Position numbers and translations under genes: made by a program. From positions 9,070,591 through 9,134,590 of the forward strand of contig NC_061776.1 in NCBI RefSeq assembly GCF_022458985.1: 64,000 nt of DNA, written 5' to 3'. Source of the DNA: Mugil cephalus (Eukaryota > Chordata > Actinopteri > Mugiliformes > Mugilidae). Below the pieces are notes generated by a model, which saw only the letters and a program-made list of their open reading frames with translations, had not been told where the DNA came from and ran no database searches. Positions 23,201-26,200 of the stretch are shown one piece after another (positions within the stretch are counted from its first letter, which is position 1; each line of letters opens with the position of its first letter).

Positions 23201-26200
23201 AGAGACGATCCCAGGATTTTTTTTTGTCATTCGCAACCATACAGAAGCATGAGCTAAGTGTATAGATATAACGTCATGGCTTGATGGGTTTGTTGTAGAC
23301 ATACGTACAGTTTGCCAGCTCCGTGGTTGTCTGTTTTTCACCAGGCTGAGAGGCTCCTGCTGCCCGGCTGTCGTCATCAGCTGAAGTTCGCTCGTGTCCA
23401 TGCTCTCCTGAGGAACGGTGATCTGCTGCAGAGGCTGATGGCGGCCGGTCGGCAGCTCTGTCTTACAGAGCGACAGAGGCTTCGGGTCTGCGGCCGCCTC
23501 GCGGACATTTTCCTGGGCTTCGTGCTGATGTGGGCGCCTTAGAGGAGCGCCGAGCGTCTGGCCTACATGGAAGTACGGATACCTCAGGGCCTGGGGACAC
23601 GCGGCCAGAACAAAACCAAAGGAAAAACGTCAGGAATTATGCTTCCACGAAAAATTCATCAAGTTCAGGAAGAGTATGTTGTAAAAATAAAAGACACGGC
23701 ACTTATCAACAGAACCAGACGTCAAATTTGGCTGATTGATTCTCACTTATCCCAAAAACAGATGCTCTTAAAGTACTCAAAGACAGTTGGGATAAAAGTA
23801 ATTTACAGGTTTTAATTGTACCTGAGCAGCACTCGGCCTTTTCTCGGGGTCCCACTGCAGCATGTCCCTCATCAGTGCGATCGCCTCGTTGCTGGCGTTG
23901 GGAATCAAGGATCTGAGGCTGGTGGGGACGCACTTTGGGAAGCGGAAGTTCATTGAGGTGGCCAGGTTGTAGCCTTCGGGCCAATCCGACTGGCAAGTTA
24001 AAAAAAAAAAGAAGCACGTCACACAGCAGAAGCACAACATACGACAGCTGTGGCGGCGGCTCTTCCTCGTCACCTTCTTCAGGGTTCCCAGCACCTGACA
24101 GATCTTGAAGATCTCATCCACTTCGCTGTTGCCTGGGAACAGAGGCCTGAGGGTGTACAGCTCCGCCATGATGCATCCCACGGCCCAGATGTCGATGGGA
24201 GAGCTGTAAGAGCTGGACTTGAGCAGAACCTCTGGCGCTCGGTACCTGACGTAAGGGTGACGACGGCGGCGGTTAAATTAAACTTATTTGTTAATATTCT
24301 GTTTTATTGCTGTTTGTTCCCCAATAAACTAACTTTTCCTCCAACTAACACCTACTACGTGTTCTGACTCCTTTCTACCAGAACTAGCACAAACTTTTTC
24401 AGCAACCTGAGCTACAGCATCTCGTATGTGGGATCGGATCTCACTGGACAGACTTTGATCCCCCATCTGCATCAGCCAGATGTTGGGAGTAACACATGTA
24501 ACGCATTACTTTTTGCTATTACATTTTTTTTCTGCTCATAATACATCAGCTTTGAAGATAAACTGTTCGTTTCCTGCCTTAACTATCCCACCCACTGACT
24601 GAGGGTCAGTACCATGCGCCATGACAATCATATAATCACCAGTGGGTCATGATGTTATGTCTGACGGGCGTAAGTAATCGTTGTAAAACGTTTATGTTCA
24701 GGATTAATTTAATCACTCTGCTGTTGGGTTTCTCTCACCATCTCGTGGACACGTAGTCCGTGTAAGGAGGCCGCGAGCGGATTTCTCTCGCTAGTCCAAA
24801 ATCTGCAATCTTCACCAGCTCCGGACCCATGCAGAGCAGGTTCTCCGGTTTCATGTCCCGATGGAAGTACCCTAGAAGACAAGGGCCATTCAAGGTAACC
24901 TCTGCTACTGCTCCGAAATAGATGTAAATACTACCGCTACTCCTACGACCACTTTTACTACACCGAGACATGACTCTCTATTAAAAAAAAAAAAACAAGG
25001 AAGGGGAAAGAGAAAGGCACTAGGAGTCTCTTACCGTGCTTATGCACAAATGCTAAGCCGGACAAAACTTGGAACAGAATATTCCTTATCTCATGTTCAG
25101 AAAACATCTTATCTTCCCTGGCAGCGGCAAAAGTGGTGAAAGACAAGAGGCAGAAAGTGGGGATGAAGGAAAAATTTAAAAAAAAACTATGCAAAGGATT
25201 ATGTCGTGCTGAAGTGGAGCGACACCCACAAGAAGAACTAAAAACAGATTTCTTTGGGAAAAGCTAAACTTTGGTACAATTCACACCTCCTCTTCTCACT
25301 GGAGATCAGGAGAAGTGACTCACTCTTGGTTTGGTAACAGGATTCATTCACTTTTCAGCTGTTCATTTACTTAATTATTAACTATTTAGGTATATAAAAG
25401 CTAGGTAACACAGCATTTCACACGAGACAAAAGACATTTTTCCTCCTGTCCACATTTAAAGGCCTCGCTGTAGTCACCTACCATGTTTATGAATAAACGA
25501 CAGTCCCTGTATTATCTGAAATGTCATGTTTCTGACAGCTGACTCAGGGAACGACTTGTTTCTGTAAAAACGACACACGATGACTCAAAGCCGACCAAAA
25601 TAATTCTCATATTCACATTTAACTGCTGAGTTAATTCGCAGGCATCCGTGTCTTACCTTTCCGTCATGAGCTGATAGAGGTTTTCCTTCATGTACTCGAA
25701 GACAAAGTAGAGGAAGTCGTTCTCTCTGATGACCTCCTTCAGTTTCACCACGTTGGCGTGATTCAGCTTCTTCAGCGACTGATGACACCAAGTATTTAGG
25801 AAACACAATAAAATACAGTCAGTTAGAATCAGGTCGTCATAGGAGTAACCAAGCTCCCCCAACCACCGTGGCCATCACTACAAGGATTGGTATCGACCCG
25901 AGGGTGCTCCTGCATCTCTTCGACCATCTCCACAGCCCTTCACACTGCTCTCAGCCACATTGAAAGCCCCGATACACATGTCAGGATGCTGTTCGTTGAT
26001 TCCAGCTCAGTATTCAACTCCCTCAGCCCCGGTCGACTGGTCAACAAACTACAAAACCTGCAACTCAGAACCCCTCTCTGTCGATGGATCATGGACTTCC
26101 TGACAAAAAAGACCTCGGCACGTTAGGTCGGGCACCATCCATCATCCTCAACACTGGAGTGCCGCAGGGCTGTGTCCTGAGCCCCGCCCTCTTCACGGTG

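Follow-up and report, generated by a model that had tools for sequence, protein, structure and literature searches.

Introduction

Tandem-duplicated exons are a known phenomenon, and several described systems resemble the one reported here: a pair of homologous exons, 4a and 4b, inside the kinase domain of mak, the gene for a cilium-controlling kinase, in a stretch of 64,000 nucleotides (nt) of the Mugil cephalus genome (NC_061776.1, positions 9,070,591 to 9,134,590; hereafter, the window). In the JNK kinases (MAPK8 and MAPK9), the alternative exons 6a and 6b lie after the activation segment, whereas those of mak precede the HRD loop and fall in a linker and helix alphaE. In both systems, the alternative exons belong to the kinase domain of a CMGC kinase, and in JNK the exchange alters substrate binding (PMC8699841). 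The FynB and FynT forms of FYN likewise result from mutually exclusive homologous kinase exons and bind differently (PMC9741552), although FYN is a tyrosine kinase. OGDH has homologous exons 4a and 4b, the second of which is preceded by a long pyrimidine tract and an AG-free zone (PMC7969005). In human MAK itself, the canonical and retinal forms differ by the retina-specific 75-bp exon 12, so that alternative splicing of this gene is tied to photoreceptors (PMC9159943); this exon, however, is a cassette in the C-terminal region and exchanges nothing within the kinase domain.

Three surveys of duplicated or mutually exclusive human exons make no mention of MAK in their main texts (PMC9741552, PMC5740500, PMC4465641; supplementary gene lists were outside the search), and in the photoreceptor-splicing literature searched, Mak was named only as an axoneme marker. 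The original prediction, made from the window alone, noted that such a pair is not known to have been described for mammalian MAK, which agrees with these texts, their supplementary lists aside. The mak pair appears to be undescribed in the searchable literature; automated genome-database annotation may well contain it. We describe here a genuine, evolutionarily conserved alternative exon in the kinase domain of fish mak and argue that, judging from sequence, its use is most likely mutually exclusive with that of its neighbour.

Two homologous exons precede the HRD loop of mak

The minus strand of the region was read and the exon junctions were rebuilt (Table 1). Exon 4b is a homologous exon located downstream of 4a, in the same gene and on the same strand. 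All splice sites are GT-AG, with acceptors ending in tttttacag (4a) and gctgccag (4b) and donors gtaggt and gtaaga, respectively. Both exons begin in phase 2, end in phase 1 and are free of stop codons; they differ in length by exactly one codon, and 14 of the 28 aligned residues are identical. A search of the window with 4a recovered 4b at E = 1.1e-8 and no third copy at E <= 1; searches for an extra copy around the two related genes described below, on contigs C18 and C13, returned weak fragments only (E 0.19-0.99). The original prediction had put both exons at these positions, with these lengths, intact splice sites, phases and open frames and about 50% protein identity, and all of this holds on the rebuilt junctions.

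Table 1 Features of the window's mak gene (C7) and of the second mak gene (C18) with their surroundings.
Feature	Position	Strand	Description
mak exon 3	window 25657..25778	-	122 nt; ends 2 bases into a codon; upstream exon common to both forms
mak exon 4a	window 25482..25561	-	80 nt; completes the split codon of exon 3, ends 1 base into the next
mak exon 4b	window 25035..25117	-	83 nt; completes the split codon of exon 3, ends 1 base into the next
mak exon 5	window 24739..24871	-	133 nt; carries HRD and DFG; downstream exon common to both forms
Pyrimidine-rich tract before 4b	window 25118..25187	-	80% C/T over 70 nt
Seven UAG triplets after the 4b donor	window 24905..25022	-	possible Musashi sites; modest significance
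Retina-exon-like cassette, C7 mak	window 21563-21637	-	in frame, 75 nt
Retina-exon-like cassette, C18 mak	C18:16124869-16124946		in frame, 78 nt
Second full mak gene	C18:16117292-16126498		followed by tmem14, then an AP-2 (tfap2) gene
C18 match of 4b	C18:16120023-16120109		best match of 4b outside the window
tmem14 open reading frame	window 19260-19559		Tmemb_14; follows mak
C18 match of a window frame near Tmemb_14	C18:16127909-16127995
AP-2 exon	C18:16141629-16142138		PF03299
LINE reverse transcriptase-like fragment	window about 26000-26272	+	intron between exons 2 and 3; antisense to mak

In the window gene, inclusion of 4a and 4b together shifts the reading frame, with the first stop in 4b, and skipping of both shifts it as well, with the first stop in exon 6. 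In the C18 gene, both combinations also shift the frame, with the first stop in exon 5 in either case; the predicted frame break upon inclusion of both exons is thus found in both genes. By contrast, 4b without 4a preserves the frame. Because joint inclusion and joint skipping both end in an early stop, a productive mRNA would contain either 4a or 4b but not both. The Pkinase scores of the two isoform segments are nearly equal (177.0 and 177.6 bits), so that both forms should fold.

The exon pair is present in a second mak gene

In a search of the same genome (24 contigs, 635 Mb), the best match of 4b outside the window was on C18 (93% identity, E = 2.9e-11), with a 4a-like exon approximately 540 bases upstream. 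This C18 pair has the same lengths (80 and 83 nt), the same phases and intact splice sites, and belongs to a full mak gene that matches the C7 gene across the kinase exons and up to a common C-terminal end. The gene order is shared as well: tmem14 follows mak in the window and on C18, where an AP-2 gene comes next, and a window frame near the Tmemb_14 open reading frame has its match in the corresponding C18 region (Table 1). Two further neighbours in the window are presumably pak1ip1 and gnal. This arrangement fits a duplicated segment, most simply one from the teleost genome duplication, and the exon pair, as read from the two sequences, is older than the duplication of the mak genes. In zebrafish, tfap2a, tmem14ca, mak, gcm2, elovl2 and gnal lie in one interval (PMC11273301).

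With 4a as the query, matches in the genome were confined to the genes on C7, C18 and C13 (5 places, E <= 10), the window exon sharing 75% identity with its counterparts on C18 and C13. The C13 gene, which we take to be cilk1, has a single exon at the place of the pair, followed by an intron of 223 nt, and no 4b was found in the 20 kb examined around it. Derivation of 4b from another kinase gene was considered and rejected: the four other places matched by 4b are 37-43% identical (E 0.021 to 8.55), three of them, those inspected, reading as other kinases in the right frame and the fourth lying on C21.

Exon 4b has been conserved for its protein sequence

Comparison of the C7 and C18 copies of exon 4b shows 19 base differences, which are distributed over codon positions 1, 2 and 3 as 3, 0 and 16, and 26 of the 28 codons specify the same residue. 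In neutral simulations with 19 changes, none of 20,000 runs kept 26 residues (the best kept 21), and 49% contained a stop codon. Synonymous divergence (dS) is saturated in 4b and amounts to 0.67-1.27 per site in exons 3, 4a, 5 and 6, whereas the introns flanking 4b align in short fragments only. Given that the residues were kept while synonymous change went to saturation and the introns diverged, 4b has been retained for its protein; this pattern of substitution marks it as an old coding exon subject to purifying selection. The numbers of residues kept in the other exons are 20/27 (4a), 37/40 (exon 3), 41/43 (exon 5) and 53/57 (exon 6); the stronger conservation of 4b compared to 4a is a trend only (26/28 vs 20/27, Fisher p = 0.078).

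Exon 4a is closer to cilk1 (21 and 22 of 28 residues) than to 4b (14 to 17 of 28). This closeness implies either that 4b predates the split of MAK and CILK1 or that its divergence was rapid and preceded the separation of the two mak genes, and 28 residues are too few to choose between these scenarios.

The exchanged segment corresponds to part of the p38 docking groove

Residues 1-29 of 4b were matched to p38alpha by an ungapped manual count backwards from HRD, with the numbering checked against 360-residue PDB chains; on this count, they correspond to p38alpha 117-145. The docking groove of p38 is formed mostly by residues 110-130 and 158-162 and includes Ile116, Gln120, Leu122, His126, Phe129 and Leu130 (PMC12751014). 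The 4b pair is set apart from cilk1 and the 4a exons of the two mak genes by nine columns (2, 4, 5, 7, 10, 15, 18, 20 and 25; p38 positions 118, 120, 121, 123, 126, 131, 134, 136 and 141), five of which fall within 110-130. The additional lysine of 4b occupies the position of Gln120, and a 4b glutamate that of His126.

Either choice of exon would leave the kinase core unchanged and exchange the alphaD-alphaE linker, which would be one residue longer with 4b, together with part of helix alphaE. Because the corresponding segment in p38 forms part of the docking groove, we propose that the switch would most likely act on which activator, scaffold or substrate docks. By analogy with p38, such an effect on the docking surface is plausible, at somewhat less than even odds.

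Putative splicing signals flank exon 4b

The 70 nt preceding 4b contain 80% pyrimidines in C7 and 83% in C18, compared to 44-70% at 12 other acceptors in the three genes. Among 14 exon flanks, some of them shorter than 200 nt, the 4b exons have the highest counts both of motifs for pyrimidine-tract-binding protein (PTBP) within 200 nt upstream (19 in C7 and 21 in C18; others 1-15) and of downstream UAG triplets (8 in C7, one of which is the acceptor of exon 5, and 6 in C18; others 0-5). Upstream PTBP motifs combined with downstream UAG triplets are the layout described for photoreceptor exons, the published rules being at least 5 YCU/UCY motifs less than 2 nt apart upstream and at least three UAG within approximately 15 nt spacing downstream (PMC4991804, PMC6952364). 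The upstream cluster comprises 7 motifs in C18 4b and at most 3 in C7 4b, and exon 5 of C7 also has a cluster that qualifies. Downstream, C7 4b has a cluster of 4 UAGs and C18 4b one of 2, or 5 when gaps of up to 25 are allowed, and exon 4 of cilk1 has 3. That single cilk1 exon is followed by 4 UAGs within 100 nt, and no alternative exon was seen there.

Random stretches of the local composition reach the UAG counts of 4b in 35/2000 and 112/2000 cases. We also screened 581 pseudo-exons with acceptor and donor consensus for both counts, with thresholds set post hoc, from 4b itself once the UAGs had been seen. The upstream count was reached by 49 and the downstream count by 11, and three reached both, compared to approximately 0.9 expected if the counts were independent (49 x 11 / 581); these were C7 4b, C18 4b and the C18 homologue of the retina exon (see below). 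This outcome is suggestive only. If the signals act as in photoreceptor exons, PTBP would keep 4b out of the mRNA in most tissues, and 4b would be admitted where this protein is low, that is, in neurons, photoreceptors and perhaps germ cells. Inclusion of 4b in photoreceptors or neural tissue can be put forward tentatively, as roughly a one-in-three proposition.

Other features of the mak locus

Both mak genes also contain an in-frame cassette exon at what we take to be the position of the human retina-specific MAK exon 12 (Table 1). The match to the human peptide is weak. Both fish exons are preceded by a pyrimidine-rich tract, and a downstream UAG cluster is present in C18 only. The C7 exon has 18 upstream motifs, 70% pyrimidine and one UAG in 200 nt; the C18 exon passed the joint screen with a pseudo-donor and, counted from its real donor, has 4 UAGs in 110 nt.

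The intron between exons 2 and 3 harbours a fragment resembling the reverse transcriptase of a long interspersed nuclear element (LINE), with an RVT_1 match (E = 0.00041) below the curated cut-off.

Discussion

Exon 4b is almost certainly a real coding alternative exon of mak, and at the level of the protein, 4a and 4b are very probably mutually exclusive, an exclusivity that the reading frame, at least, would enforce. The original prediction that an exon ahead of the HRD loop is duplicated in tandem, with exclusivity imposed by the frame, is well supported. Of its broader interpretation, the duplication and the frame logic stand, whereas mutually exclusive splicing as such, and its example of a split between photoreceptor and germ-cell forms, are things we infer; the sequence signals point modestly to neural or photoreceptor control of 4b. 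Retention of both exons intact in the second mak gene suggests that the choice between them matters.

Chance resemblance between 4a and 4b is ruled out by the E value of their match in the window, by the C18 pair and by the neutral simulations. One could argue, from its being known here from the sequence of one vertebrate genome alone, that 4b is a defunct remnant or a stretch open by chance, but this notion is hardly credible given that the pair, its splice sites and its frame are all kept in C18 and that no neutral simulation kept as many residues. The early stops that follow from taking both exons or neither, in both mak genes, would also suit a role of 4b in generating mainly unproductive mRNA, with decay adjusting how much Mak is made and little weight attaching to the 4b protein. 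We regard this as improbable, because a pure poison exon does not require the constraint seen in 4b, where the protein was kept while synonymous sites changed almost freely, and because 4b by itself preserves the frame. Finally, 4a and 4b could be functionally equivalent, a pair kept by inertia with no consequence for docking or tissue; the two segments are equally kinase-like, and the evidence from regulatory motifs is modest. Against equivalence stand the nine columns at which the 4b pair departs from 4a and cilk1, the near identity of 4b in the two mak genes and the presence of the pyrimidine tract in both despite the fragmentary alignment of the introns, so that this explanation, too, is unlikely.

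We therefore favour, with a probability of roughly 0.72, an old alternative exon of mak, a choice of 4a or 4b and a docking switch, with less weight given to neural or photoreceptor inclusion. Several observations weigh against this view. The use of 4b, the tissue concerned and the exclusivity are all inferred from sequence. In zebrafish, as far as the consulted portion of the report goes, cloning of mak cDNA yielded exon 14 as the sole alternative exon, with two isoforms that differ in its presence (PMC11273301). Each of the strict cluster rules singles out just one of the two 4b exons, and dinucleotide shuffles reach the UAG counts of 4b in 1297/2000 and 470/2000 cases. Use of a p38-like groove by MAK is not shown in the literature consulted. 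Steric or structural enforcement of exclusivity is without support here. Steric exclusion, in which the branch point lies too near the upstream 5' splice site, was considered and appears unlikely because the introns between 4a and 4b measure 364 and 461 nt (C7 and C18), which, to judge from these lengths and the AG-free zones, leaves ample room. The AG-free zones before 4b (67 and 66 nt), although long, are not unique, exon 3 of C7 having one of 73 nt; in this respect, mak differs from OGDH with its distant branch points, as crowding would be unlikely at these distances.

A fuller scenario, which we consider doubtful as a whole, would make 4a/4b a switch in the docking surface of the ciliary kinase MAK that arose long ago, before the fish mak duplication and perhaps before MAK and CILK1 separated. 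Photoreceptors, or other sensory and germ cells, would admit 4b through the code of low PTBP and high Musashi that governs other photoreceptor exons; cilk1, and perhaps mammalian MAK, would have lost 4b.

A swap within the kinase domain would yield two Mak enzymes per gene in fish. The 4a/4b pair would thus be a natural experiment on the surface by which MAK recognises its partners, and 4b offers a concrete test of whether other vertebrates had, or lost, a second form of this kinase.
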